Shown: in pieces, positions 15,329 through 35,042 of the stretch
How positions within the stretch are numbered: the stretch's first letter is position 1
Layout: each line of letters opens with the position of its first letter
Source: Verrucomicrobiota bacterium
GTDB lineage: Bacteria > Verrucomicrobiota > Verrucomicrobiia > Limisphaerales > Fontisphaeraceae
Direction of reading: 5' to 3'
DNA: 59,483 bases
Assembly: GCA_037139415.1 (NCBI GenBank)
Contig: JBAXGN010000016.1
Location: forward strand, 1-59,483
The notes under the pieces: generated by a model
The model's input: the letters and a program-made list of their open reading frames with translations, nothing else
The model's database searches: none
What the model was told of the DNA's origin: nothing
Program-made: the position numbers and the translations under genes

Positions 15329-15952
15329 TCAAATGCCCGGGAAATATTTTTTAATGCAATCGGGGCAGATTCCGTGGGTGAATTTGGCACCGGTGTGGCG
15401 CTGGATATACTGCTCGATTTGGTTCCAGTACCCTTGGTCATCACGGATTTTTTTACACGCGGAGCAAATCGGAATCAGGCCGCGCAACGTGCTAACTTCA
15501 TCCAGCGCTTGCTGTAATTCCGTCGCGAGCTGGCGGTATTTTTTCTCGCTTTCGCGCAGAGCGAATTCGGTGCGCTGAATGCGGAGCATGGACTGCACGC
15601 GCGCCAGAAGCTCCGCGTTGCCGATCGGCCGGGCGATGTAACCATCGGCGCCGGAGTCCAGGCCCTCCGCTTGCTGATCGCTCGCCGTGCGAACGGAGGA
15701 TAGCTGTACGATAAAGATGCGTGCCAGCAGGGGATCGGATTTAATCTGCCGGCATACTTCCAAGCCATCCAGATCAGGCAAGTGAACATCCAAAAGCATC
15801 AAATTCGGCAGGTGTTCACGCGCCAAACGCAAAGCCTCGGCTCCCGTGGCCGCCTCCAATAAATCAAAGCCGGCCGGCCCCAGCACCCGGGTGGCGGCCA
15901 GGCGCATGATTTCGTTATCATCCACGATGAGTATCTTGGCGGGTTGAGTCAT
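15329..15952 (-). CDS. response regulator with C-terminal four-cysteine motif
   Basis: A 207-residue single receiver: KILIVDDNEIMRLA with acidic pocket, phospho-acceptor Asp in LMLLDVHLPDLDG, and GADGYIARP as the Lys region (here Arg replaces the usual Lys in IxKP). A coiled helix (about residues 125-155) leads to a tail GLIPICSACKKIRDDQGYWNQ...HGICPDCIKKYFPG. This CxxC...CxxC tail is a recurring module at the end of receiver and PAS proteins and may bind a metal. The start at 15952 begins just before the receiver; the longer GTG frame to 16093 adds nothing recognisable. It is divergent from the adjacent Wsp cluster and could be a phospho-acceptor for it. Confidence 0.82.
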   Translation of the reverse strand: MTQPAKILIVDDNEIMRLAATRVLGPAGFDLLEAATGAEALRLAREHLPNLMLLDVHLPDLDGLEVCRQIKSDPLLARIFIVQLSSVRTASDQQAEGLDSGADGYIARPIGNAELLARVQSMLRIQRTEFALRESEKKYRQLATELQQALDEVSTLRGLIPICSACKKIRDDQGYWNQIEQYIQRHTGAKFTHGICPDCIKKYFPGI

Positions 15953-16247
15953 GTTTGGGATTCCTTGTTCCGCTTGGAAAGGCACGGGGTTTGCCCACCA
16001 CTTGGCTGATGGCTGGCGGCCAACGGCCCGTGAGTACGAGTCGCCTGGTCCAACCGCGCTTTCCGATTTACGCACATGGGCGCAGATTAGCACAATTGCC
16101 GCCGGTTGTCTTTAAAAAGTCCTTCCCCGGGTAATTTTTTTGTGGCATTATGGGCAAGAAGCAGTTACGGTGAAGCCAGATAGTGGCTGGTCAATGTTAT
16201 TAAAGCTAAATCATGCCAATGCGTACACAACGAATGAAGCCCTGTTC

Positions 16248-17852
16248 ATGAAAACCTTAACTATCGCACAGCGTCTCAAAGTCACGCTCGGTATCATTAT
16301 CGGCCTGCTCCTGGCCGGCTTCATCTTAACGGCTTGGATGCAGTCCCGGATTGACGAGGCGGAAAAACAAGCCGTGCATCAGCGCGATACCCTGCTGCGA
16401 AATACCGCGCTGATAAGGCTGATCATGATGGATACGAGTGATGCGCTCCGCGGTTTGCTGCTGGATCCCCAAGCGGCGGCGGAAAAGAAACGCAAATTGG
16501 ATGGCGACGCGCTGATGGCCAAAATCGTTGAGGAAACCAAACCTTTGGTGAAAGACCAACCTGGCTTATCCAAAGCCATGATTGACCTGGAGAACTTCGA
16601 TGACAAGACCTTGAACGTGCTTGAAGACCGGATCATGCAATTGGTGGTCACCAACCAGCAAGCCGCTAATGACTTCTATCAAAAGAGCTATTTGTCCGAA
16701 CGCCAAAAGGCCGATCAACTCATCGCGGAATTTGATCGGCAGATTCAGAATACCGGTGACAAGGATCAGACCAAGACCTTCGTCGTGGAGATCATCATGG
16801 TCGCCTGCGTCCTTATCATTATCATCACCAGCCTTTGGCTCGGACGCGGTTTGGTCAATGCCATCACCCAGCCGCTGGATCGCCTCCTTGGCGCCATGCA
16901 GCACTTGCAAGCCGGGAACTTTACGAATCGAATCTCCCTGCCGCGACACGATGAATTTGGCATCCTGGCGGAAGGCTTGAACCAGACCGCCGAGAATCTC
17001 GCCCGGCTGGCCGGGCAGGCGCAACAGGCGGGCATCCAGTTGAACACCAGCGTCACGGAAATGGCAGCCACCCTCAAGGAACAGCAGGCCAGCTCCAGCG
17101 AAATGGCGGCGACCACCATGGAAATCAGCAGCACTTCCAAGGAAATTTCCGCCACGGCGAAAGAGCTGGGGAAAACGATGAGCAGCGTGGCCGCCGTGGC
17201 GGAGGACACCGCCCAACTCGCTAGCGGCGGACAATCCGGGTTATCCCGGCTGGAAGCCACCATGCGCCAGGTGATGGAGGCCACCGGTTCCATCGCCGCC
17301 AAACTGGCTTTACTCAGCGAAAAGACCGCCAACATCAACTCGGTGGTCACCACCATCAATAAAGTTGCCGATCAAACCAACCTGCTTTCGCTCAACGCAG
17401 CCATTGAAGCGGAAAAGGCCGGCGAGTTCGGCCAGGGATTTGCCGTGGTCGCCACCGAAATCCGCCGCCTGGCGGATCAAACCGCAGTTGCCACGTATGA
17501 CATTGAACAAATGGTCAAGGAAATGCAATCGGCGGTAGCCGCCGGCGTCATGGGGATGGACAAATTCAGCGAGGAGGTTCGGCGGGGCGTCGAGGAAGTC
17601 AAACAGGTCACCGCCCAACTGGCCCAGATTATCCAGCAGGTGCAAACCTTGACGCCCCGCTTTGAAAGCGTCAACGACGGGATGCAATCACAATCCGCCG
17701 CTGCCGGCCAGATTAGCGAGGCCCTAAGCCAGTTGGGAGAAACCGCCCAACAATCGGCGGAAGCCATTGTGCAAAATGCCGAAGTGGTCGAGCGGCTCAC
17801 CGCCTCCGCGCGCGGGTTGCAGGACGCGGTATCGCTCTTCCGGGTAAAATAG
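16248..17852 (+). CDS. wspA: methyl-accepting chemotaxis protein, WspA-like (first copy)
   Basis: A membrane chemoreceptor of 534 residues, the input of the Wsp pathway. TM1 is about residues 10-30 ([19 protein letters not shown]), a periplasmic four-helix-bundle-like sensor spans about 30-180, and TM2 is about 183-202 ([20 protein letters not shown]). HAMP follows ([20 protein letters not shown]...[11 protein letters not shown]), then the signalling domain. The hairpin tip [23 protein letters not shown] is conserved. The segment [20 protein letters not shown] and then MGMDKF is the pattern I remember from Pseudomonas WspA. The Met at 16248 starts right before TM1. The signalling part is nearly the same as in the second copy downstream. 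WspA in Pseudomonas senses surface contact or envelope stress; the stimulus here is unknown. Confidence 0.92.
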
Positions 17853-17879: not shown

Positions 17880-19364
17880 ATGAAAAACTGGTCTGTCCAA
17901 AAACGGGTGATGTTTGGCTTTGCCTTGGTTATCCTGATCTCCGCCATCATCTGCACCTATGCCATCCTCAGGCTCGGCACGATCCAGACATACGCACTCC
18001 AAGTGCAAATGAATACCGTGCCGTCCCTGCATGGCATCGGGGAAATGAACGCTGCGGGAGACGAAGATTTCATTCGGGTACTCGAATATATTTACTCCAC
18101 GAACGCGGTCGAAAAGGCCACGCTGGACACTCCGCTAAATGCTTTTTCAGAGGAAATGGCCAAGCGCTTCAAAGCCCTCGAACCCACGCTGCTGGATGCG
18201 AAAGATCAGCAAATGTTCGGGACCATCAAGACGGCGCGTGACGAATATACGACGGCGCGCAACAAAGTTCTGGAGCTGGCACGGGCAAACAAATCCGCCG
18301 AAGCGGAGGACTGCCTGGATAAGCAGCTAAAACCCAAGTATCGGGACTTCTCCAAAGCAATTGATGAGATCGCGAATGATAACTTTACCGACGGGATCCT
18401 GATCGGCAAGGAGATCACCGCTTCCGTTTCCTCCACCCGCTGGGTGGTGCTGGGAGGCAGCCTGGCCTCGTTGGTCGTCTGCATCTTGATTGCCATGTCC
18501 GTGGTCAAATCGCTCAGCGAAACCTTGAACAAGCTCCTCGCCGCGCTCATGCAGGTCAACACCAGCTCGGCGGAAATGGCGGCGACGCTCAAAGAACAAC
18601 AGGCCTCGGCCAACGAGGTGGCTTCCACCTCCATGGAGATCGGCGCCACCGCCAAGGAGATTTCCGCCACCGCCAGGGAACTAGGCAAGACGATGAACGA
18701 AGTGGCGCACGTTTCCGAACAGACGGCCCAAGTGGCGGGCGGCGGCCAGACCGGACTTGCCCGGCTGGAGTCCACCATGCGCCAGATCATGGATGCGGCC
18801 GGCACCATCAGCGCCAAACTCGCGATTCTCAACGAAAAAACCGCCAACATCAACTCGGTGGTCACCACCATCAACAAGGTGGCCGACCAAACGAATTTAC
18901 TCTCGCTGAACGCGGCCATTGAAGCGGAAAAGGCCGGCGAACACGGCCAGGGGTTCGCCGTGGTGGCGACGGAAATCCGCCGTTTGGCGGACCAGACGGC
19001 GGTCGCCACGTACGATATCGAGCAAATGGTGAAGGAAATGCAGTCCGCCGTGGCGGCCGGCGTGATGGGCATGGATAAATTCAACGAAGAGGTGCGGCGA
19101 GGGGCCGACGAAGTGGGACGGGGCACGGCGCAACTCACGCAAATCATCCAGCAGGTGCAAACGCTCACCCCACGCTTTGAAACGGTCAATGACGGCATGC
19201 AGTCCCAATCCACCGCCGCCAGCCAGATCAGCGATGCGTTGGGGCAACTCGGGGAGACCGCCCAGCAATCCGCCCAAGCGCTGCGCCAAAACACCGAGGC
19301 CCTCGAACAGCTCACGGCGGCCGCACGCGGTCTCCACGAAGCCAGCGCCCAATTTAAAAATTAG
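17880..19364 (+). CDS. wspA: methyl-accepting chemotaxis protein, WspA-like (second copy)
   Basis: A 494-residue chemoreceptor directly behind the first. TM1 is about residues 10-32 ([21 protein letters not shown]), followed by a 4HB-type sensor, and TM2 is about 181-203 ([22 protein letters not shown]). No clear HAMP domain follows; TM2 runs almost directly into the signalling helices. The hairpin-tip region ([20 protein letters not shown]) and the methylation helices match the first copy closely, while the sensor halves differ. This looks like tandem duplication with sensor replacement or divergence. The N-terminus MKNWS also resembles remembered Pseudomonas WspA. It ends four bases before wspB. 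Confidence 0.92.
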
Positions 19365-19367
19365 CCC

Positions 19368-19880
19368 ATGATCTTCCTTTTGTGTCAAATCGGGAACGAC
19401 CGCTACGCATTGGAGATTCGTCACGTGGTGGAAGTGCTGCCGCGTGTCCATTTAAAACAGATTCCCCAAGCCGCCCGGGGTATTGCCGGAGTGTTTAACT
19501 ATCATGGCGAACCCGTGCCGGTGGTGGATTTGGCGGCCATGGCGCTCGACCTGCCGGCACGCGCCAGCCTGTGTACCCGCCTCTTGGTTGTCCAATACCC
19601 AGTGGCAGAAGGGCGCACCGGTCTTTTGGGACTCCTGGCGGAGCATGCCACGGATACCCTCCGGCGCGAGCCGTCCGATTTTCAACCCCCGGAAGTCTCC
19701 CCCCCCCAAGCCCCCTATTTGGGACCGGTTACCAGTGATGAACGCGGGTTGATTCAATGGCTGAAATTGGAACAAATTCTGCCACCATCCGTGCGCGACC
19801 AATTATGGCAACAAGCCGCCACCGCGCAGGAACAACCAACCACCTCAATCGCCGGAAAAGTCGAAGGATTGAAACGATGA
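19368..19880 (+). CDS. wspB: CheW-like coupling protein WspB
   Basis: A CheW-domain protein of 170 residues that links receptor and WspE kinase. FLLCQIGNDRYALEIRHVVEVLPRVHLKQIP and GIAGVFNYHGEPVPVVDLAAM are the CheW core, and the N-terminus matches the WspB pattern. Nothing unusual beyond a Pro-rich loop (FQPPEVSPPQAP). Its TGA stop overlaps the ATG of wspC (19877-19880), which indicates translational coupling. Confidence 0.9.
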   Translation: MIFLLCQIGNDRYALEIRHVVEVLPRVHLKQIPQAARGIAGVFNYHGEPVPVVDLAAMALDLPARASLCTRLLVVQYPVAEGRTGLLGLLAEHATDTLRREPSDFQPPEVSPPQAPYLGPVTSDERGLIQWLKLEQILPPSVRDQLWQQAATAQEQPTTSIAGKVEGLKR

Positions 19881-21334
19881 CGGTGGCATCCTCATCCGGG
19901 CTGAAAGCCATTGAGCAACTCCTGCGCCAGGTCATCGGCTTGGACCCCGAAGCGCTCGGGGCCTCAACCGTTGCCACGGCCGTCCAACACCGGATGAAAA
20001 AGCGCGGTCTGAAAACCGTGGATGAATATGCCTCGCTGCTCTTGTTGGCCGACGCGGAATTGCAGGAATTCATTGAAGCCATGGTGGTGCCGGAAACCTG
20101 GTTTTTCCGAGATCACCAACCGTTTGTGGCGCTGGGTCAGTGGGTGAAGGAAGGCTGGTGGCCAGCGCATCCCCAAGGCGTGTTACGCGTGCTCAGCGCT
20201 CCCTGTTCCACGGGGGAGGAACCGTATTCCATCGCCATGGCGCTATTCGACGCCGGCCTGCCGCCCGACCAGTTTGTCATCGAAGCGCTGGACATCAGCG
20301 CAGCCGCGCTGGCACGCGCCCGACCAGGGGTTTATGGCAGCAATTCATTTCGCGGCCAGGACCTTGGTTTTCGCGACAAGTACTTTCGCCCCTGCGCCAC
20401 CGGACACCAACTGGCCGCAGCGATCCGGCGGCAAGTGCAGTTCCGGCAGACGAACCTGCTGGATCCCATTTTACCGGAAAGCCCCGGCAGCCAGCACGTC
20501 GTCTTTTGCCGCAACTTCTTGATCTACTTGGATGAACCGGCGCAACACCGGGTCATGACCGCGTTGGACCAAGTGCTGGCCAGCGATGGTTTTCTGTTTG
20601 TGGGCCACGCGGAAACGTTTGCTTTCCATCGCTTCGGGTTTGTGCCGGCACGGATCAATATGGCCTTCGCGTTTCGCAAACGCGAGAAGCATGCGCCAGC
20701 CGTGCTGCGGCGTAAACCTGCCGTTCTGGCACCTCCCCAGGAACCCCCTCATCCCATCCTTCTCCCCCAAGGGGGCGAAGGTGCCCGCAGGGCGGTTGAG
20801 GGGGAGCAGTCGGTTCATGGGTTCAAAGAGCGAAATCTGGTTTCGGGGAAGTCTCACCCCGCCCTAACCTCGCTTGGCCCTGCGGCGCTCCGGGGTGCGG
20901 TCGGCCCGCTTCCAAAACCGGGGCGGATGCCAGCTATTTTGCCGCTTCCTTCCAAGCGGCACCCGGTGCCACCGGCAAAGCAGTCTGACAATGAAGAGGC
21001 GGATTTGGCTGAAGCCCGGCGACTCGCCGATCACGGAAAACTTGAAGCGTCGAAAAGCCAGTGCGAGGCGTATTTGCAAAATCATGAACCCTCCAGCGAG
21101 GTGTTTTTTCTGCTTGGGCTGGTGCATGGGGCGGCGGGAAACCATGTGGCGGCGGGCGCCTTTTATCGCAAAGCCTTATACTTGAATCCGGATAACCAGG
21201 AAGCGCTGGTTCACCTGGCGTTGCTGGCGGAGAAACTGGGGAAATTTGAGGAGGCCAGAAGGCTTCAGCAACGGCTGCGCCGGTTGCAGGCTAAACCGTT
21301 GGCGACCAACGCCCAAGCCAGCTCCAAATTATGA
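19877..21334 (+). CDS. wspC: CheR-type methyltransferase with TPR tail, WspC, with in-frame repeat insertion
   Basis: S-adenosylmethionine-dependent protein-glutamate methyltransferase that adapts the Wsp receptor, 485 residues. The CheR N-terminal helices and MVVPETWFFRD are followed by the SAM site SAPCSTGEEPYSIAM and then DISAAALARAR, RNFLIYLD and GHAETF. After about residue 280 comes a linker, then TPR-like helices (about 370-470; AEARRLADHGKLEASKSQCEAYL, VFFLLGLVHGAAGNHVAAGAFYRKALYLNPDNQEAL). The linker (about residues 289-351) encodes EPPHPILLPQGGEG and onward, i.e. an interspersed repeat inserted in frame. The ATG at 19877 is used rather than the frame start at 19757 because it overlaps the wspB stop and begins at the CheR domain. 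Confidence 0.92.
   Translation: MTVASSSGLKAIEQLLRQVIGLDPEALGASTVATAVQHRMKKRGLKTVDEYASLLLLADAELQEFIEAMVVPETWFFRDHQPFVALGQWVKEGWWPAHPQGVLRVLSAPCSTGEEPYSIAMALFDAGLPPDQFVIEALDISAAALARARPGVYGSNSFRGQDLGFRDKYFRPCATGHQLAAAIRRQVQFRQTNLLDPILPESPGSQHVVFCRNFLIYLDEPAQHRVMTALDQVLASDGFLFVGHAETFAFHRFGFVPARINMAFAFRKREKHAPAVLRRKPAVLAPPQEPPHPILLPQGGEGARRAVEGEQSVHGFKERNLVSGKSHPALTSLGPAALRGAVGPLPKPGRMPAILPLPSKRHPVPPAKQSDNEEADLAEARRLADHGKLEASKSQCEAYLQNHEPSSEVFFLLGLVHGAAGNHVAAGAFYRKALYLNPDNQEALVHLALLAEKLGKFEEARRLQQRLRRLQAKPLATNAQASSKL
20752..20804. repeat. interspersed palindromic repeat, copy 2, in frame inside wspC
   Basis: Matches 10988-11040 at 50 of 53 bases. Sequence with a similar unselected look (PALTSLGPAALRGAV) continues to about 20930, so the whole insertion may be about 190 bp. 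It is open in the wspC frame and lies in the linker between the methyltransferase and the TPR region. Confidence 0.85.
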
Positions 21335-22011
21335 GCACCCAAGTGAATCATTCAGAGATTACCACGTGCTGGAAACACATCGGGGTGTGGGGCGATGGTT
21401 CCTGCAAGAACCTGCCCACCTACGCCCATTGCCGCAATTGCCCGGATTATCGGCGGGCCGCTGCGGCCTTGCTTGACCGCGAACCACCGCCTGGTTACTA
21501 TGAGGATTGGACGCAACGCGTGGCACAGCCGCGCCAGCCGCGCCTGACGGGCACGAAACCCGTGGTCATTTTTCGCCTGGGTGGAGAATGGCTGGCGCTG
21601 CCGACGACCTCCTTCCAGGAGGTTGCCGAACTGCGCCCCGTCCATTCGTTGCCGCACCGGGCGGACACGATCGTCAAGGGCCTGATCAACATTCGTGGCG
21701 AATTGCTCATCTGCATCTCGCTCGCAGCCCTGCTGGGATTGGAAACCGCGCCGGAGCCAGCCGCAAAAAAATCGCGCTCGGCACACCAGCGACTTCTGGT
21801 TGCGACGCACCAAACCGGGCGGGTCGTGTTTCCGGTAACCGAAGTGCATGGCAGCCGCCGTTACCATCCGGATGATCTCAAGCCCCTTCCTTCCACGGTG
21901 GCGCTGACCACCGCCCGTTATTCGATCGGGCTGCTAGCCTGGCAGCAACACCTGGTGGGCGTTTTGGACGCCGAATTATTGTTTTACACCTTGAACCGCA
22001 GCCTGTCCTGA
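21331..22011 (+). CDS. wspD: CheW-like protein with N-terminal Cys motif, WspD
   Basis: A second CheW coupling protein, 226 residues. The N-terminus has the Cys pattern TCWKHIGVWGDGSCKNL and then HCRNCPDY (C-x12-C-x8-C-x2-C). This is the hallmark I remember from WspD (CWnRIGvxGDrSCpeL...HCRNCPvy) and distinguishes it from plain CheW. The CheW domain follows (VIFRLGGEWLALPTTSFQEVAEL...IVKGLINIRGELLICISL). It starts by overlapping the wspC stop by four bases (21331-21334). The Cys motif may bind a metal; its role is not established. Confidence 0.92.
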   Translation: MSTQVNHSEITTCWKHIGVWGDGSCKNLPTYAHCRNCPDYRRAAAALLDREPPPGYYEDWTQRVAQPRQPRLTGTKPVVIFRLGGEWLALPTTSFQEVAELRPVHSLPHRADTIVKGLINIRGELLICISLAALLGLETAPEPAAKKSRSAHQRLLVATHQTGRVVFPVTEVHGSRRYHPDDLKPLPSTVALTTARYSIGLLAWQQHLVGVLDAELLFYTLNRSLS

Positions 22012-22021
22012 CTGTTTATTT

Positions 22022-24289
22022 ATGGGTGATCTCAGTCAATTCTCAATGTTTGAACTCTTCCGCCAGGAAGCGGAGAACCAAACGGCCACGCTCACCCGGG
22101 GAATCCTCACGCTGGAACAGAATCCCACGTCACCCCGCGAATTGGAAGCGCTGATGCGCGCCGCGCATTCCTTGAAAGGCGCGGCACGGATCATTGGGTT
22201 GGAGGCTGGTGTCCGGCTGGCGCATGCCATGGAAGACTGCTTTGTGGCGGCCCAAAAAGGACAACTGCTCCTGAACTCTGCCGCCACGGATTGCTTATTG
22301 AGAAGCGTTGATCTTTTTACCAACCTCGCCCAAACGCCCGAGTCAAATCTAGCCGTCTGGGATGGCAACCGGAAATCCGAAGTGGACTCTCTGGTGCAAT
22401 CCTTGGCGGCCCTCACCAGCGGAAGCTCTCCCAGCCTGCCGGCGCGGATGAACGAAGCACCCCTCCCGGTGCCGGCGGAGAACCCACCGATCCCACCCGC
22501 GCCAGCCATGCGGAACAACACCCCGGAACCGGAAGCGGCGGATCGGGTATTGCGCGTAACGGCGGAAAACTTGAACCGCCTGTTGGGACTCGCGGGCGAG
22601 TCCCTGGTCGAATCCCGCTGGTTGGAGCCGTTTGCCGATTCGCTCCTCCGCCTCAAGCGCCAGCAATGGCGGCTGGCCAAGACCCTGGAGAGCTTGGAGG
22701 GAAATCTGGCCGGACAGTCACTCGACGAGCGGACCCAAGCCCACCTTCAGGACGCCCAGCAACAGGCCGGCGACTGCCTGCGGAATCTCTCCACCCAGCA
22801 CGCCGAATTTGAACTGTACTGCCGGCGCATCGCCGGGCTTTCGCATCGTTTGTACCGCGAAGCCATGGCCAGCCGCATGCGGCCGTTCGCCGATGGGGTG
22901 CATGGTTTTCCGCGCTTGGTGCGGGATCTGGCCCGGGATCTGGGTAAAGATGTCCGGTTGGAGATTACGGGTAAAGACACCCCACTGGACCGGGAGGTGC
23001 TCGAAAAACTTGAAGCCCCGCTCAACCACCTCCTCCGCAATGCGGTGGACCATGGCATCGAAATGCCCGAAGTGCGGGTCCAGACGGGCAAGCCGCCGCA
23101 GGGAACGATCCTCCTGGAAGCCCGGCATAGCGCGGGCTTGCTGCTGATCATCGTGCAGGACGACGGCTGCGGGATTTCCCTGGAGCGTTTGCGAAAAGTC
23201 ATCGGGGAGAGAAAATTGGCCGCGCCGGAAGTGGTCGAAAAACTGGGGGAGGATGAATTGCTGGAGTTTTTGTTTTTGCCCGGTTTTTCGCTGCGTGAAA
23301 ACGTGACGAATGTTTCCGGCCGCGGGGTGGGGTTGGACGTGGTGCGGAGCACGGTGCAGAACCTGCGCGGCTCGGTGCGCGTGTCCGCGCCGCCCGGGCA
23401 AGGGGTTCGCTTTCAACTGCAACTGCCGCTGACGGTGTCAGTGGCGCGCACGCTCCTGGCGGAGATTGCCGGCGAACCGTATGCTTTTCCGCTGGCGCGG
23501 GTGCAAGGCGTACTGCGTGTCCCGCAGAATCAGGTCGCGATGCTGGAAGGCCGGGAACACCTCGCGTACAAAGACCAGCGGATCGGATTGGTGGCGGCCA
23601 GCCAGATTTTAGGACGCGGCGCCGCCCCGGCAGGCGACGAACTGGCGGTGATTGTCCTGGGCGAACGCACGCGCCGGTTTGGGGTGGTGGTGGACAAATT
23701 CCTGGGCGAACGGGAGCTGGTGGTGCAGCCGTTGGACCCCCGGCTCAGAAAGATCAAGGACATCAGCGCGGCGGCGCTGATGCCGGATGGCTCTCCCGTT
23801 TTGATTGTGGACGTGGACGACCTGCTGCGTTCGATTGAATTGTTGGTAACCGGCGGTCGTTTGGCCAAAGCCCACAGTTCCGAAACCGCCCTGGCCCAAC
23901 ACCGCTGCAAGCGAATCCTGGTGGTGGATGATTCCCTCACGGTGCGCGAGCTGGAACGCAAACTCCTAAGCAACCGGGGATTTGAAGTGGAAGTGGCGGT
24001 GGATGGCATGGATGGCTGGAACGCCGTGCGCACGGAGACCTACGACCTGGTGGTCAGCGACGTGGATATGCCGCGCCTGGATGGCATTGAATTGGTCAGC
24101 CTCATCAAGAAGGATCCGCGGTTGAAAGCCCTGCCAGTCATGATTGTGTCGTACAAGGACCGCGAAGAAGATCGGCGGCGCGGCCTGGATGCGGGAGCCG
24201 ACTATTACCTGACCAAGGGAAGTTTTCACGACGAAGCCCTGCTCACCGCCGTAGTGGATCTCATCGGCGAACCGGAGGACCACCCATGA
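22022..24289 (+). CDS. wspE: CheA-type hybrid histidine kinase/response regulator WspE
   Basis: The central kinase of the Wsp pathway, 755 residues. HPt domain at the N-terminus with phospho-His49 (AAHSLKGAAR); dimerisation and ATPase domain about 180-470 (HLLRNAVDHGIEMPE, IVQDDGCGIS, GRGVGLDVVRS). A CheW-like regulatory domain lies at about 475-610 and a C-terminal receiver at about 630-755 (KRILVVDDSLTV, acceptor Asp in LVVSDVDMPRLDG, GADYYLTKG). This order, HPt-kinase-CheW-REC, is that of WspE. There is no separate P2 domain between HPt and kinase. By analogy it phosphorylates WspF and the downstream WspR-like receiver. Confidence 0.93.
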   Translation: MGDLSQFSMFELFRQEAENQTATLTRGILTLEQNPTSPRELEALMRAAHSLKGAARIIGLEAGVRLAHAMEDCFVAAQKGQLLLNSAATDCLLRSVDLFTNLAQTPESNLAVWDGNRKSEVDSLVQSLAALTSGSSPSLPARMNEAPLPVPAENPPIPPAPAMRNNTPEPEAADRVLRVTAENLNRLLGLAGESLVESRWLEPFADSLLRLKRQQWRLAKTLESLEGNLAGQSLDERTQAHLQDAQQQAGDCLRNLSTQHAEFELYCRRIAGLSHRLYREAMASRMRPFADGVHGFPRLVRDLARDLGKDVRLEITGKDTPLDREVLEKLEAPLNHLLRNAVDHGIEMPEVRVQTGKPPQGTILLEARHSAGLLLIIVQDDGCGISLERLRKVIGERKLAAPEVVEKLGEDELLEFLFLPGFSLRENVTNVSGRGVGLDVVRSTVQNLRGSVRVSAPPGQGVRFQLQLPLTVSVARTLLAEIAGEPYAFPLARVQGVLRVPQNQVAMLEGREHLAYKDQRIGLVAASQILGRGAAPAGDELAVIVLGERTRRFGVVVDKFLGERELVVQPLDPRLRKIKDISAAALMPDGSPVLIVDVDDLLRSIELLVTGGRLAKAHSSETALAQHRCKRILVVDDSLTVRELERKLLSNRGFEVEVAVDGMDGWNAVRTETYDLVVSDVDMPRLDGIELVSLIKKDPRLKALPVMIVSYKDREEDRRRGLDAGADYYLTKGSFHDEALLTAVVDLIGEPEDHP

Positions 24290-24447
24290 ACCTTCCCAAA
24301 CCCGGGCGGGTTATCGTGCGCAACGCGGGGTGGCTCAGGGTATATAAATCCTGGTTTTACACCGCCACAAATAAATCTGACCGCCAGCAAAAAGTGGGTT
24401 ATAATGGTTGGCAAACGGATGGCTGGTTTGAAAATAGTTCCCCATAA
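24286..24447 (+). CDS. possible short ORF between wspE and wspF
   Basis: An ATG overlaps the wspE stop (ATGA, 24286-24289) and opens 53 codons ([17 protein letters not shown]...), ending at TAA just before the wspF start at 24449. The stop-start overlap is the same arrangement as at the wspB/C and wspC/D junctions. The peptide has no recognisable features and may be chance or the remnant of a longer wspF N-terminus. Confidence 0.2.
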
Positions 24448-24448
24448 A

Positions 24449-25468
24449 ATGCGAATTGGAATTGTCAACGATCTGCCGCTGGCAGTGGAAGCGCTCCGCC
24501 GATTGCTGGCCAAGCAAACGGAACACCAGGTCATTTGGGTGGCGTATAACGGTTCGGAAGCGGTGGAACTGTGCGAACGCAACACGCCCGACCTCATTTT
24601 GATGGACCTGGTCATGCCGGTAATGAACGGCGTGGAAGCCACCCGCCGCATTATGGCTCGGTGCCCGTGCGCCATTTTGCTGGTCACCGTCAGTGTTCGT
24701 GAGAATGCCGGCTTGGTTTTCGAGGCCATGGGCAACGGCGCGTTGGATGCGGTGGATACGCCAAACCTGGGGAACGATGTGGTGCAAACTGGCACGTCGT
24801 TGCTTGCCAAAATTGATCTGATGAATCGCTTGCTGGCGGTGGGAAATGGCCCGGCAAAGCCCTTGTCGCCTTCAATGGGTGACGTGGCCTTTTCCCGTAA
24901 ACCAAAACTGGTCGCCATCGGCGCTTCCGCCGGTGGCCCGGCCGCGCTCGCTTATGTGCTCTCCCGGCTCCCGCGTAATCTGCCTGCCGCCGTGGTGCTG
25001 ATTCAGCACGTGGACGAACGCTATGCCCCCTCGCTGGCGGAGTGGTTGAACCAACAGTCCATCCTCCCGGTGCGGGCGGCCGTGGAAGGAGACACCCCCA
25101 CCGTTGGCCAAGTGCTCCTGGCGGTGAAAAATGATCATTTGGTTTTTACCGGCCCCAACCGGCTTGGATATACGGCACACCCTCAGGAAACATTTTACCG
25201 TCCCTCCGTGGATGCGTTTTTTGAAAGTGTGGCCCGTCATTACAAAGGCGGCGTGATCGGGGTGGTGCTAACCGGGATGGGCCCGGATGGGGCCAAGGGC
25301 CTGAAGACATTGCGCGCTGCCGGGTGCTATACCATCGCCCAAGATCGTGAAACCTGTGCGGTTTATGGCATGCCCAAAGCGGCGGCGGCCATCGGCGCCG
25401 CGGTGGATATCCTGCCGCTGGAAAAGATTGCCGCGCAAGTGTCCGAACGGATTAATAAGCTGGCATAG
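24449..25468 (+). CDS. wspF: CheB-type methylesterase WspF
   Basis: Receptor methylesterase and negative adaptation element of the Wsp pathway, 339 residues. The receiver ([19 protein letters not shown], acceptor Asp53 in LILMDLVMP) begins exactly as in the WspF family. The esterase domain has catalytic Ser160 (AIGASAGGP), His (LIQHVD) and Asp ([11 protein letters not shown]). The Met at 24449 directly precedes the receiver; the frame start at 24404 adds an unsupported 15 residues. In Pseudomonas, loss of WspF locks the pathway on; the same logic would apply here if the adaptation loop is conserved. Confidence 0.93.
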
Positions 25469-25491: not shown

Positions 25492-28020
25492 ATGAACTCT
25501 CCTTTGCCGTCCACTGCTTCGCCCAACCCACCGGCCGAAAATCCCAGCCGGATCATGGTGTTACTGGTGGATGACCAGCCGATGATCGGCGAGGCGATCC
25601 GGCGCATCCTCGCCAACCAGACCGACATTGATTTTCATTTTTGCGCGAATCCGGCTGACGCCTTGGGCACCGCGCGCCAAATCAAACCCACGGTGATTCT
25701 CCAAGACCTCGTCATGCCCGGCATTGGCGGCTTGGAACTCCTCAACGAATACCGGCTGGATCCCGTCACCAAAGATATCCCCGTCGTGGTGCTGTCCACC
25801 AAAGAAGACCCGGTGGTGAAAAGCGAATCATTTGCGGCCGGGGCCAACGATTATTTGGTCAAGTTGCCGGATAAGATCGAACTCCTTGCCCGCGTCCGTT
25901 ACCACTCGCGGGCTTACAACAGCCTGCTCCAGCGCGACGCAGCCTATCAATCATTGCGGGAAAGCCAACGTTGCCTCACAGAAACGAACGATGCGCTTTT
26001 ATTGGCCAATCGCAAGCTGGAAGAAGCCACCCAGGCCAAATCCGAATTTCTGGCGCTCATGAGCCATGAAATCCGGACGCCTATCAACGGTATTATCGGC
26101 ACGTCCGAGCTGCTGGCAGACACGAAGCTGGACGAAAACCAGCAGGAGGCCCTCCACGTCATTCTCAACAGCAGCGAAGCCCTGCTGGCCATCATCAACG
26201 ACGTGTTGGATTTCTCCAAAATTGAGGCGGGTAAACTGGAGATGGAGCATGTCCCCTTCGATCTGGTCACCTGCCTTAAAGACGCATTTGACGTCGTGGC
26301 TTTGAAAGCGGCGGAGAAAAATCTGGATTTGATCTGCCATTTTGATGCCGCCGTCCCCACCCATTTGGTGGGCGACGTCACCCGGGTGCGCCAAATTTTT
26401 CTGAATTTGCTTGGGAATGCCATCAAGTTCACCGCGCAAGGTGAGATCGTCGTGCGGGTGCAACTGGACGCCGCCGCCTTCAATCACCGTCAACCTTCAG
26501 CCACCCCCCTGCGGTTCTCCGTTCGCGACACTGGCATTGGCATTTCGCAGGAAAAACAGGAACGCCTGTTTCGCCCCTTCATGCAGGCTGACAATTCCAG
26601 TACCCGGCAATACGGCGGCACCGGGCTGGGCCTGTCCATCAGCCGCCGGTTGGTGGAACTGATGGGCGGGCGGATTTGGCTGGAGAGTGAGTCTGGCAAA
26701 GGTTCCACGTTTCACTTTGCCATCGCGCTCCCGCCGGCGGCTCCCACCCGCCGGGCGCCCTGGCTGGAACCCCAGCCCGGGTTATCTGGAAAAAAGGTTC
26801 TGTTGCTGGAAGATAATCAGACTTTTCAAGGCATGTTCCGTGAACTGGCCCAAAGCTGGAACCTGGGTGTCTGGTCCGCCGTGTCCACCGATGAAGCCCG
26901 CGCCATCTTGAACCAAGAACCCAGCCCGGATGTGGTGATGGTGGACGAGCAGTTGCCTGCGGGAGATGTTTTTTCGCTGGTGGATCATCTCCAGTCATCA
27001 CGCGGCGGCAAAAGTCCGGCGCTGGTTTTGCTCACCTCGCAGCGCCGGCGGCGCGATCCACTCCAGTCCGCGCGCTTAAACGCCGCCTTGGTGCTTAAAA
27101 AACCGGTCTGGCCTCAACAGGTGCTGGACACCCTCCTTCGCGCGGTGGGGAGCGCCGTCACCGCGCCCACTGCCTCCAGCGCGCCCGCCCTAGACTCCAC
27201 CATGGGCGTCCGCATGCCGCTGCAGATTCTTTTGGCCGATGATAATGAAATCAACCAGAAGGTCGCGCGGGCGTTGCTGCGCCGCTTGGGTTATGAAGTT
27301 CAGGTCGCCCGCAACGGCAGCGAAGTTCTTCAGGCGTTGGAAGAGCAGCTCTATGATTTGGTGTTCCTGGATCTTCAAATGCCGGAAATGGACGGCTATG
27401 AAGCCATGCGGCGGATTATCGCCAAATGGCCGGCCGAAAAACGGCCATGGGTGATCGCCATGACTGCCGCCGTCCTGCCCAAGGATCGGGAAAAGTGCCG
27501 GGCGGCGGGGATGAGTGATTTCGTGATTAAACCGGTTCGGACGGACGTCCTGCAAGCGGTCATTGCCAAATGGTATCCGCTGGTCGCGGCAAGGCGGGCG
27601 GCGAGCCGTGCCACTGAGCCGCAACTGACTGAGGATTCCCACGGCTCGCTCGAACAGAGCAATTTATCGCCGTTTGAATCTGAACGCCTTGAGGAAATCA
27701 GCGGCGGCAATCCAGTCAACCAGCGGGACCTCATTCTCTTGTATCTGAATCAGGCCGGCGAACTGATGCGCCTGCTGGACGCCGCCATCCGCCGCCAGGA
27801 CTTCCTTGAGGCCGGCCGACACGCGCATAAATTGGCGGGTTCCAGTAGCGTCTGTGGCATTAACCACGTCGCACAATCGCTGCGAGTGATCGAGCAGTTG
27901 TGTGAGTGTGGGCAGCCAGCCAAGGTGCCGGAACATTTCGCGGTGACCGTTCAACAGTTGGAAATCGCCCGCAAGGCCTTGACCGAGTATCTTGAAAAAC
28001 TGAAACCCCATTCTCCCTAA
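25492..28020 (+). CDS. WspR-like receiver fused to hybrid histidine kinase (REC-HisKA-HATPase-REC-REC-HPt)
   Basis: An 842-residue cytoplasmic hybrid kinase in the place of WspR. REC1 (about residues 20-145, Asp72 in LQDLVMPG) matches the receiver I remember from WspR almost phrase by phrase: [53 protein letters not shown]. It is followed, through a helix like the WspR stalk, not by GGDEF but by HisKA (His192 in SHEIRTP) and HATPase ([23 protein letters not shown]; to about 415). REC2 (about 433-550, Asp485 in MVDEQLP), REC3 (about 577-697, Asp627 in FLDLQMP) and HPt (about 735-835, His779 in HAHKLAGSS) follow. No diguanylate cyclase motif is present. It presumably converts WspE phosphate into a phosphorelay rather than cyclic di-GMP. 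Confidence 0.93.
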
Positions 28021-32020: not shown

Positions 32021-34912
32021 TCAAGCGGCAGTTTTATCGCCTTGGGATCGCCTTTGACGATGTGCCAAGGCGCGCACGATGGTGTCCAGGACGTGATCCA
32101 GATTTTTACCAACATCCTCCGCCAGAAACCGCAACACGAAATAGCCGTGCTCCTGGAGCAGGGCGTCTTTCCGCCGATCACGGCGATAGGCTTCGGGATC
32201 ATTCAGATGCTGTGCGCCATCCAACTCGATGGCCAGGCTGGCATCCGCACATAGCAGGTCCACTTCCATCTGCCCACGTCCATCGAACGGGATTGGCAAC
32301 TCCACATTCAGGCGAAAACGCCCGGTGGTATCCGGCAACGATTCAAGCCGCCGGTATAAAAAAGCCTCGGTTGCGCTGCGAGCGCGATCCGTTCCCTCCG
32401 CTTCAGGCGCTGGGGAACGGGTGACATGCACAAATAGATTCGCCAATGGTTGGTCAACCCCATCACGAATAAGCCGCCGCACACTGGCGGCATAATCCTT
32501 TTTCCACTCGGGATCAATTGGCAGCGGAACCTCGGCGGGCCAGCCAGGCAGGGCGCTGGCCGGCAATAGGATCGCATAGCCAAGCGCTTCATATCCCCTG
32601 CACCGCCGATCAAACATCCCGGCAAACATCGGGACATTGAGGTCGGCATAATCATAGATTCGCACTTCGTGTTTGTCATGATGAAGACGATGCAACCGAC
32701 CGGCGTATTGGGCAATGGTGCCCCGCCAAGACACCGGCAAAGCTAGGAACAAGGTGTCCAGCCGAGGAAGGTCGAACCCTTCGCCGATAAATCCTCCGGT
32801 GGCCATGAGCACACGCCCTTCACTCTCAGGGAGCGCTGCCAATCGCGCATTGGCGGCCAGCAAGTCTTTCTTGGTCATTCCCCCCTGCAGAATAATAATA
32901 TGGGGAATTTCCGATGCCAACCGTTCAGCCATGAGCCGCAAGTGTTCGGTGCGTTCGGTTAATAGCAAGGGGAACCGGCCTTCGCGCACAACGCCCAACA
33001 CATCGTGGCAAATCATTTCGTTGCGAGGCGCGTCGGTTACCAACGCCTTGTACAGTCTTTGAAACTCAACGCGCCGATCCTGCTCTCCCAACTCTGCCAA
33101 CATCCGAAAACCAGTCGGGCGCACATACACATGATGCGCAAAAGGTCGGGCCGCCGCCTGTTGTTTTGCATCAACACGATACCGGACGGGGCCACACTGC
33201 ATGAAGATAATCGGGTGATGTCCATCTTTCCGGGTAACCGTGGCCGACAGACCGGTGACAAATTTTGCTTTGGCCCGGCGGGCAACCAATTCAAAACTCT
33301 GGGCAGTCACGTGATGGCACTCATCCACGATCAAGTGACCATAGTCTCCGACGCGGTCATCCACCACGCCTTTGCGCACCAGGCTTTGGATCAGCGCCAC
33401 ATCCAAGGTGCCGGTCATTTTCTTCCGTCCTCCACCGATCCGACCAATCGCTTTGGCCGGCAATTCAAGAAACGATGACAGACGCTCCACCCACTGATCC
33501 AACAACTGCTGACGGTGGACAATCACGAGCGTATTAACCCCGCGTTGGGCAATCAGCCAGGCGGCAATCACGGTTTTTCCAAAAGCCGGCGTAGCGGAAA
33601 GCACCCCGATATCGTGCGCACGCATGGCTTCGGCAGCCATCTGCTGCTCGGGACGCAACTCGCCGTGGAATGAGACGGTCAATGGGGTGCCGACCAATCG
33701 TTCGTCGCGGAGTGCCGGCTTGATGTTCAGATCACGAAGCAAGGCCTTAATGTCAGACAAGCAGCCGCGCGGCAAACCCAGGTGCAGTGGGCAATCCTCA
33801 GCACAGTCAATAACGCGTGGCTTGTCATAGGTCGGCAGCCGCATGGCTTGCGCCCGATAGAATTCGGGATTTTGAAACGCGGCCAGGCGGAGCAGACGAT
33901 TGCGAAGCGGCGGCGGTAAATTCTCCTTGGCAATGTAAATCTGGTCGCCAAGAACCAAATCCAAACTTTCTGGCAACGTTCCGGTGATGGGGGTTTCTTT
34001 GTGCCGCCGCGAAGGCGATGCCAGCCACGGAGTTTCCTCACCTGGCTCCGCCAGAACCAAGCGCACGCCAACTATTTTCCCCCGATTTTCCGCATCGCAC
34101 ACAATGGCTTCGACTTGTGGTCGGGTGAGTTTGCGCACCGACGCCAGAAACATCCATTGGTCCGGATGAGGATTAAACTCTTCGTCAAGAAACACACTGT
34201 TACCGCGCGACCTTGGCTCTTTTTGCAGAGGCAAAGCAATCAGGTTTCCGAAACCGCCACTGGGTAGGGTATCCTGATTGGGAAACAAGCGGTCATAAGA
34301 ACCCAATCCGATGTCCGGACGGTTTTCCATCGTTTCGGTTAAAAGGTAGGAACCGAGATTTCGTGCAAGACGTGCTGGAAGTGCCTCTTCAAAAAACATC
34401 CAGACGTGGCCGCCGTTACCGGAACGGGATCGTTCGAGTGCGGTAGACAGCTCAAAGCGTTTGCAGGTTTGCATGAACGCGCCGGCATCCTCCTTCCAAG
34501 TGTCCCGATCGAAATCAGCAGCCAGAAAATAACAGGTCTCATCCTGAAGCATCGGGTATACACCCATGATGAAATCACGCCCTTGGCCATCCCGCCCGGA
34601 GAGGTGCCAACAGATGACCTCATCGGTCACCGGCAGCAGACGTCGGCTGGCACAATCAGTACACTTGACCTTGGGTTTGAAACAGATACCGCGAACCCAT
34701 TCGTTGGCACACGCTGGTTGGTAGCCAGACTTGCCGGTTTTTCGACTCTCAAAACGCCGGGGATATACGTCCTCCCGGCCGCGAAACAGCGATCGGAAGA
34801 GGGCGATTTTGACGGCGGGCACGGAATGCTGATTGATTCCTGCATTTCCCTGCTCAGGAAACAACGTCGCCATTGGAATGGCAGTTTCTGCCGGAATCAC
34901 CTTCGCGCTCAT
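32021..34912 (-). CDS. TOTE-type primase + SF2 helicase + DUF559 nuclease fusion
   Basis: A 963-residue multidomain protein. Residues about 35-290 form an archaeo-eukaryotic primase domain of the TOTE conflict-system kind: catalytic AADFDRD (Asp133, Asp135), the SGNGGHVW motif (His169) and a Cys cluster (Cys77, Cys84, Cys87). Residues about 415-800 are an SF2 helicase with Walker A ATPAFGKT (441-448), DECHH (530-534), LSAT, and a C-terminal lobe with ATGGFIGEGFDLP and QYAGRLHR. The last 110 residues are a DUF559/Vsr-like PD-(D/E)xK nuclease (MEVDLLCADASLAIELDGAQH). There is no ribosomal or repair context. The combination points to a single-gene defence or conflict effector acting on DNA; this is inference. 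The start at 34912 is preferred; a frame to 34996 exists. Confidence 0.88.
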   Translation of the reverse strand: MSAKVIPAETAIPMATLFPEQGNAGINQHSVPAVKIALFRSLFRGREDVYPRRFESRKTGKSGYQPACANEWVRGICFKPKVKCTDCASRRLLPVTDEVICWHLSGRDGQGRDFIMGVYPMLQDETCYFLAADFDRDTWKEDAGAFMQTCKRFELSTALERSRSGNGGHVWMFFEEALPARLARNLGSYLLTETMENRPDIGLGSYDRLFPNQDTLPSGGFGNLIALPLQKEPRSRGNSVFLDEEFNPHPDQWMFLASVRKLTRPQVEAIVCDAENRGKIVGVRLVLAEPGEETPWLASPSRRHKETPITGTLPESLDLVLGDQIYIAKENLPPPLRNRLLRLAAFQNPEFYRAQAMRLPTYDKPRVIDCAEDCPLHLGLPRGCLSDIKALLRDLNIKPALRDERLVGTPLTVSFHGELRPEQQMAAEAMRAHDIGVLSATPAFGKTVIAAWLIAQRGVNTLVIVHRQQLLDQWVERLSSFLELPAKAIGRIGGGRKKMTGTLDVALIQSLVRKGVVDDRVGDYGHLIVDECHHVTAQSFELVARRAKAKFVTGLSATVTRKDGHHPIIFMQCGPVRYRVDAKQQAAARPFAHHVYVRPTGFRMLAELGEQDRRVEFQRLYKALVTDAPRNEMICHDVLGVVREGRFPLLLTERTEHLRLMAERLASEIPHIIILQGGMTKKDLLAANARLAALPESEGRVLMATGGFIGEGFDLPRLDTLFLALPVSWRGTIAQYAGRLHRLHHDKHEVRIYDYADLNVPMFAGMFDRRCRGYEALGYAILLPASALPGWPAEVPLPIDPEWKKDYAASVRRLIRDGVDQPLANLFVHVTRSPAPEAEGTDRARSATEAFLYRRLESLPDTTGRFRLNVELPIPFDGRGQMEVDLLCADASLAIELDGAQHLNDPEAYRRDRRKDALLQEHGYFVLRFLAEDVGKNLDHVLDTIVRALAHRQRRSQGDKTAA

Positions 34913-35042
34913 GTTAAAAATGTAGCGGGGAGCCGCCGTGCTGTCGAGACAGGAAGCATGGCAAAAATGGAAACGGATTGTGTGTCGCCGTTCCATGGAA
35001 TCAGGCTTGTCTTTTCAAACCAGCGTGGTTTGAATACCCGGC

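Follow-up and report, generated by a model that had tools for sequence, protein, structure and literature searches.

A Wsp chemosensory cluster of Verrucomicrobiota with a WspR-type receiver fused to a histidine-kinase relay

The window, a stretch of 59,483 nucleotides from a Verrucomicrobiota genome, carries a complete set of Wsp genes followed by a gene for an 842-residue protein in which a WspR-class receiver is joined to a histidine-kinase relay in place of a diguanylate cyclase. Sequence comparison and analogy with known systems indicate that the cluster probably constitutes an H-type (WspH-like) Wsp pathway, in which WspE would act on the first receiver (REC1), REC1 would switch the attached kinase, and phosphate would leave through REC3 and HPt to an unlinked regulator. 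The front-end genes, assigned with Pfam and by comparison with a Pseudomonas wsp cluster (L057), are:

16140-17852, + strand: WspA-like receptor 1 (HAMP, MCPsignal)
17880-19364, + strand: WspA-like receptor 2 (4HB_MCP_1, MCPsignal)
19368-19880, + strand: CheW, WspB-like
19877-21334, + strand: CheR-TPR, WspC-like (start probably at 19877; the longest open reading frame begins at 19757)
21331-22011, + strand: CheW, WspD-like
22022-24289, + strand: CheA-REC, WspE-like, the sole CheA found in the genome
24449-25468, + strand: CheB, WspF-like (start probably at 24449; the longest open reading frame begins at 24404)

Every gene of the window's cluster has a counterpart in L057, in identical order and at 37-53% identity: 44 and 39% for the two WspA-type receptors, 43% for WspB, 44% for WspC (over 282 residues), 37% for WspD, and 53% each for WspE and WspF. 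This is in agreement with the initial annotation, which had described the Wsp components as complete and in canonical order, with the refinement that wspA is doubled and two receptors are present. The similarity extends into the output gene. The Pseudomonas R-type system shares with the window not only the front end and the position of the output gene, but also REC1 and the beginning of the stalk, residues 3-166 of the output protein being 67% identical to the receiver part of the L057 WspR. Surface sensing by the window's cluster would be a property carried over by analogy from Pseudomonas.

The closest CheA relative of the window, at 64% identity, is encoded in locus L190 (G241:C210), where the CheA gene precedes a stand-alone WspR-type receiver (142 codons) and then a PAS-like open reading frame, with no kinase fusion. 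Beside the window's cluster, positions 15329-16093 on the - strand encode a receiver with a C-terminal Cys-rich module (ICSACK...HGICPDC), of which Pfam names only the receiver; in loci L004 and L184 the same module is fused to a WspR-type receiver. Further along, positions 32021-34996 (- strand) encode a 991-residue TOTE conflict-system protein composed of an AEP primase, a helicase and a DUF559 nuclease.

The output gene begins with ATG 23 bases past the cheB stop codon. It and its domains are, with the evidence in brackets:

25492-28020, + strand: H-type Wsp output protein, 842 residues, REC1-stalk-HisKA-HATPase-REC2-REC3-HPt (Pfam and alignment)
25552-25911, + strand: REC1, WspR-class receiver, about residues 21-140, with D27, D28, D72, T103 and K124 (tree, PDB sequence scores, alignment)
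25873-26115, + strand: predicted continuous helix, residues 128-208, comprising the end of REC1, the heptad-phased stalk and HisKA alpha1 with H192 (AF2, stalk lengths)
26035-26232, + strand: HisKA, residues 182-247, phospho-acceptor H192 (Pfam, alignment)
26371-26730, + strand: HATPase_c, residues 294-413 (Pfam, alignment)
26788-27150, + strand: REC2, about residues 433-553, the least conserved receiver (Pfam, alignment, AF2)
27226-27564, + strand: REC3, residues 579-691, D627, the best-scoring REC by Pfam (Pfam, alignment)
27730-27978, + strand: HPt, residues 747-829, H779 (Pfam, alignment)

Assignment of REC1 to the WspR class is based on sequence scores and phylogeny. Against sequences in the PDB, REC1 scores 219 and 218 bits with entries 3i5a and 3bre, which we take to be WspR (they are listed as response regulators, one with a GGDEF domain), and 55 bits with the next entry, PleD. 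Within its own genome, the self-score of 344 bits is followed by 56 bits for the next receiver, and receivers in other genomes of the order reach up to 239 bits. REC1 is 46-74% identical to 173 other WspR-type receivers (53-73% to those of the GGDEF type); for 29 further receivers encoded in the window genome, the range is 17-33%. In a tree of 54 of the 174 WspR-type receivers and the 16 nearest of 29 outgroup receivers, all outgroup sequences coming from one genome and L213 and L219 being left out since both overlap REC1, REC1 falls into one clade with the WspR receivers with split support of 100/99. The tree and the PDB scores rule out a position of REC1 outside the WspR clade, in line with the receiver class originally proposed.

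The domain order that had been read from the sequence, with HisKA-HATPase-REC-REC-HPt in the place of GGDEF, was recovered in a Pfam search of the 842-residue protein, which gave no further input domain. The best NCBIfam model is BarA, at 484.5 bits and under the cut-off of 890, and kinases of the BarA/GacS type share the HisKA-HATPase-REC-HPt relay with the window protein; they differ in that the input of the latter is a WspR receiver. The alignment shows an intact H, D and H of a His-Asp-His relay. The relevant residues were followed through 67 aligned fusions: D72 and K124 of REC1, H192 of HisKA, N309 and the G1-box D346 are kept in all 67, and D627 of REC3 is kept in all 65 relatives that have no gap at that position. 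The REC2 aspartate is kept in 63 of 65 ungapped relatives and the two residues of its acidic pair in 56 and 55 of 67, and H779 of HPt in 39 of 43 ungapped relatives. The HPt histidine is gapped in 24 of the 67 fusions, some of them cut by contig ends, and HPt is therefore not essential to the plan. From this pattern of conservation, phosphate likely exits from REC3 to HPt, with REC2 as a side receiver.

WspR-type receivers were collected at E ≤ 1e-20 from 320 genomes of the order and from a 387-genome sample of the phylum, the window genome being in both, and were found in 73 and 30 genomes, respectively. Architectures of the relatives were assigned with custom-built HMMs, Pfam being used for the window protein. 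The 77 loci of the order hold 78 WspR-type open reading frames, which comprise 64 kinase fusions, 4 GGDEF proteins, 4 PP2C-like proteins, 2 nucleotide cyclases, 1 protein with the Cys-rich module and 3 unclassified proteins (among them L182, with a cyclase domain). Thus, the kinase fusion is the main output of WspR-type receivers in the window's order, as seen in a survey of the kind that the initial annotation had proposed for Verrucomicrobia Wsp clusters. In the phylum sample, 29 loci with 30 such frames give 6 kinase, 22 PP2C and 2 unclassified proteins. A third set, 80 loci found through WspE, contains 71 WspR-type receivers (60 GGDEF, 7 kinase, 2 PP2C, 1 cyclase and 1 Cys-rich); the three sets overlap, with some loci common to several of them. 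The remaining nine WspE loci (L006, L026, L031, L043, L048, L050, L060, L066 and L071) have no WspR-type receiver, in some cases because the stretch ends. Among these, L048, L050, L060, L066 and L071 are records with planctomycete titles and Wsp-like clusters, and L048 stops soon past cheB. Two outputs coexist in some genomes of the order: kinase and GGDEF in G196 and G197, kinase and PP2C in G036, and kinase and Cys-rich in G118.

These counts bear on the possibility that two unrelated pathways lie side by side and that an ordinary hybrid kinase merely happens to follow cheB. The resemblance of the kinase core to common BarA/GacS-type hybrid kinases would fit such an arrangement, however, REC1 belongs to the WspR clade, and the same fusion with the same cluster recurs across further families of the order and in the class, so that we consider it very improbable. 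All types of front-end gene lie on the receiver strand in 25 of the 77 loci of the order, 22 of them with a kinase fusion, and many of the other loci are cut by contig ends. Because 64 of the 78 receiver frames in the order are kinase fusions, the fusion is not a product of chance, and chance adjacency of kinase and cluster is ruled out by the recurrence of fusion and cluster in order and class.

In an unrooted tree of CheA sequences (103 of 132 rows, i.e., every non-GGDEF row and a random draw of 30 of the 59 GGDEF rows), kinase-type loci are found on several branches, with 6 changes of output, at least 4 of which are forced by well-supported branches. A conserved partner regulator was sought beside the fusions, mostly within about 2 kb downstream, and none was linked except in L181, where a receiver gene with the Cys-rich module directly follows the kinase fusion. 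In L155, L158 and L159 the kinase-fusion genes are broken into two or more open reading frames. A plasmid search with REC1 plus kinase as query returned mostly ordinary hybrid kinases, with 80% coverage of the query in 1 of 145 records. A phage record, OQ572403.1 (Pseudomonas phage Y1), encodes at 69776-70189 a WspR-like receiver with 71% identity to REC1, for which host DNA within the record is one possible reason.

The window genome is available as a 7.9 Mb assembly of 378 contigs with 98.1% completeness, and the absences reported here are statements about this one assembly. Searches for GGDEF, EAL, PilZ, HD_5 and the flagellin N-terminus gave no match in it; the same searches were positive in 8, 6, 5, 4 and 4 of 14 control genomes, respectively. 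WspR of Pseudomonas has a GGDEF output, whereas neither the window protein nor the window genome gave a GGDEF match. The genome-wide search thus turned up no wspR-type GGDEF gene of the kind that would have spoken against the initial annotation, and a GGDEF gene elsewhere in the 98%-complete assembly, whether wspR or another, is ruled out. The genome gives three CheW-domain matches, all inside the wsp cluster. Since there is no GGDEF match and the CheW matches are confined to the cluster, the pathway is not explained by a WspR hidden elsewhere or by another chemosensory system. Cyclic di-GMP is an unlikely output in this organism because none of its enzyme domains, nor PilZ, was found. The kinase fusion does not depend on the absence of c-di-GMP, however, because GGDEF is present in 22 of the 64 order genomes that bear the fusion and gave no match in 42 (hand tally, window genome included); for order genomes with a WspR-type receiver of any kind, the figure is 25 of 73.

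The segment that joins REC1 to its output varies in length by exact heptads in every output class that was measured. Between the lysine of REC1 and the histidine of HisKA, the distance is 68 residues in 64 of the 67 aligned fusions, and 61, 54 and 47 residues in the remaining three. Of these 67 sequences, the order contributes 56, the phylum sample 5 and named genomes found through WspE another 5, with the window's own as the last. For 64 GGDEF-type proteins, the distance from the lysine to the DxLT motif is 52 (in 52), 59 (in 7) or 45 residues (in 5). The stalk of 28 PP2C-type proteins is 52 (in 22) or 45 residues (in 6), the anchor lying in a variable region, so that this heptad count is the least secure. 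Between the two Cys-rich fusions the difference is 7 (68 and 61), and likewise between the two measurable cyclase fusions (42 and 49); the divergent cyclase fusions L187 and L188 are not measurable and stand outside the count. Burkholderia WspH has 33 residues between lysine and histidine, i.e., 68 minus 35, and the distance is 61 in L246. The exception is a receiver-kinase fusion from Anabaena (L054) with 70 residues, which is out of phase by +2. On the receiver trees, in the motif-measurable rows, stalk length changed separately at least 3 times in the GGDEF class (59 rows), at least 4 times in the kinase class (63) and at least 2 times in the PP2C class (19). As a control, elsewhere in the 67-row alignment 4 of 60 distinct off-mode lengths are multiples of seven. 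A heptad rule has been published for Rec-GGDEF proteins (PMC8041772), and in Rec-kinases the length from Rec to H-box favours multiples of seven (PMC13269768); in a limited literature search, we saw no mention of the rule being held by one receiver family across different enzymes.

The AF2 model of the fusion (six sequences; pLDDT 73.3, pTM 0.41, moderate confidence) has a single helix, residues 128-208, running across the stalk and H192. In the H-type pathway that we propose, the two WspA-type receptors, the two CheW proteins, CheR-TPR and CheB would drive WspE (CheA-REC), which would phosphorylate D72 of REC1, a WspR receiver that has kept its stalk. Phosphorylated REC1 would then reshape a dimeric coiled-coil stalk that runs into HisKA alpha1 and would thereby switch autophosphorylation of H192, a step suggested by analogy with LvrB, by the phase-locked stalk and by the predicted helix. 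Phosphate would pass from H192 to D627 of REC3, on to H779 of HPt, and finally to an unlinked response regulator that may control transcription; REC2 would probably act as a regulatory side receiver.

The sign of the switch is assigned from related systems. In Leptospira LvrB, described in 2026, phosphorylation of the Rec domain forms a signalling coiled coil, frees the catalytic domains and turns the kinase on (PMC13269768). LvrB shares with the window protein an N-terminal Rec, a signalling helix and a kinase, the coil of the window protein being predicted; it differs in that it phosphorylates LvrC, and the main text of the LvrB report does not mention Wsp. In Burkholderia, the wrinkly colony form shown by wspA mutants is suppressed by loss-of-function changes in wspHRR, consistent with activation (PMC4324302). 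The opposite sign, in which WspE inhibits the kinase through phosphorylated REC1 and the relay runs while the receptors are silent, has its model in the Che3 system of Rhodospirillum centenum, where the hybrid kinase CheS3 receives phosphate from CheA3 on its REC1 and, in the authors' model, is thereby turned off (PMC3868531). Among the cases considered, CheS3 is the only worked-out one with a CheA donor. The likeness, drawn by description, is that of a CheA-REC donor acting on the N-terminal REC of a hybrid kinase; the difference is that the output of CheS3 is the single-domain CheY3 and that the system controls cysts (PMC3868531). A phase-locked stalk is compatible with either sign. On balance, activation of the kinase by phosphorylated REC1 is favoured fairly clearly, and inhibition by WspE appears unlikely while still deserving consideration.

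Phosphate flow in the reverse direction, or REC1 as a sink, would give the Wsp front end a lesser part: the kinase would phosphorylate REC1, or REC1 would only drain WspE, the input would lie elsewhere, and the front end would merely tune the relay. CheA3 is reported to use its own REC as a sink (PMC3868531), and the CheA counts may be read in the same direction. Among the 73 receiver-bearing genomes of the order, several of which are incomplete, 9 lack a CheA match (at E ≤ 1e-40) and the match in another 6 is weak (E > 1e-100, 31-41% identity), i.e., 15 of 73, and a kinase fusion lies away from any same-strand Che gene in 18 of the 77 loci, some of them cut by contig ends. A strong WspE relative is, however, present in 58 of the 73 genomes, the 842-residue protein offers Pfam no other input domain, and the high identity of REC1 to GGDEF-type WspR receivers would be unlikely without selection by WspE. 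We therefore regard a sink or reverse flow as improbable and retain the direction from WspE to REC1 and on to the kinase.

The nearest named system to the window fusion is WspH of Burkholderia, a Wsp output protein in which a kinase takes the place of GGDEF and which has been reported to be independent of c-di-GMP (PMC8552884). Genetic data for WspH suggest RowR, an unlinked DNA-binding regulator, as a further component, with direct interaction unproven and c-di-GMP unchanged (PMC8552884, PMC4324302). WspH shares with the window the wspA-F front end, a WspR-type receiver fused to HisKA-HATPase, and the same heptad phase. The differences lie in domain content, gene position and genomic setting. 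In B. arboris and B. stagnalis, WspH consists of receiver and kinase only (frames of 380 and 377 codons from stop to stop), shows 32-33% identity with the window protein across about residues 5-420, and lacks REC2, REC3 and HPt. Its gene lies upstream of wspA (L253, L254), whereas the window fusion follows cheB, and the Burkholderia records with WspH also hold GGDEF genes, of which the window genome has no match. The B. stagnalis record NZ_CP156686.1 contains both a complete R-type cluster (L249) and an H-type cluster (L254), and WspH was not found in the stretches of B. multivorans L252 or B. stagnalis L251. L252 holds a pair of cheB and receiver-GGDEF genes with no other wsp genes in the 18 kb upstream, and its WspE lies about 0.4 Mb away.

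The kinase output as such is accordingly not novel: besides the precedent of WspH (PMC8552884), kinase-fused receivers were counted in a 2012 survey of CheR-TPR (ACF) clusters, which reported RECs fused to HK, HPT, phosphatase and nucleotidyl cyclase modules (PMC3447774). Around 40% of the response regulators of CheR-TPR clusters had a kinase module in that survey, and REC phosphorylation was suggested to modulate the kinase; its passages on these clusters do not set apart WspR-type receivers, the stalk phase or genomes free of c-di-GMP (PMC3447774). What is new is that the fusion is the main output of an order, that it has three domains beyond those of WspH, and that it belongs to a set of at least five outputs carried by this receiver: diguanylate cyclase, histidine-kinase relay, PP2C phosphatase, nucleotide cyclase and Cys-rich module.

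These observations contradict statements on Wsp in a 2021 survey, according to which the system is exclusive to beta- and gammaproteobacteria, its output is either WspR or WspH, WspH is confined to Burkholderia, and the two never occur in one genome (PMC8552884). As to host range, full clusters are present in Verrucomicrobiota (25 of the 77 order loci) and in alphaproteobacteria; Wsp genes in planctomycetes have already been reported (PMC6461901). As to outputs, the loci have at least five, some genomes of the order have two, and B. stagnalis has both systems. Wsp is usually treated as a c-di-GMP surface sensor. We give even chances to a broader reading, namely that the WspR receiver and its coiled-coil stalk form a phase-locked, exchangeable plug onto which at least five outputs have been swapped with the register kept and one mechanical switch in common, and with which Wsp persists where c-di-GMP is absent. 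Since the heptad rule extends to several different enzymes attached to one receiver, the swapping of outputs can be put to a direct test and, if the plug reading is true, one chemosensory front end would drive unrelated outputs.
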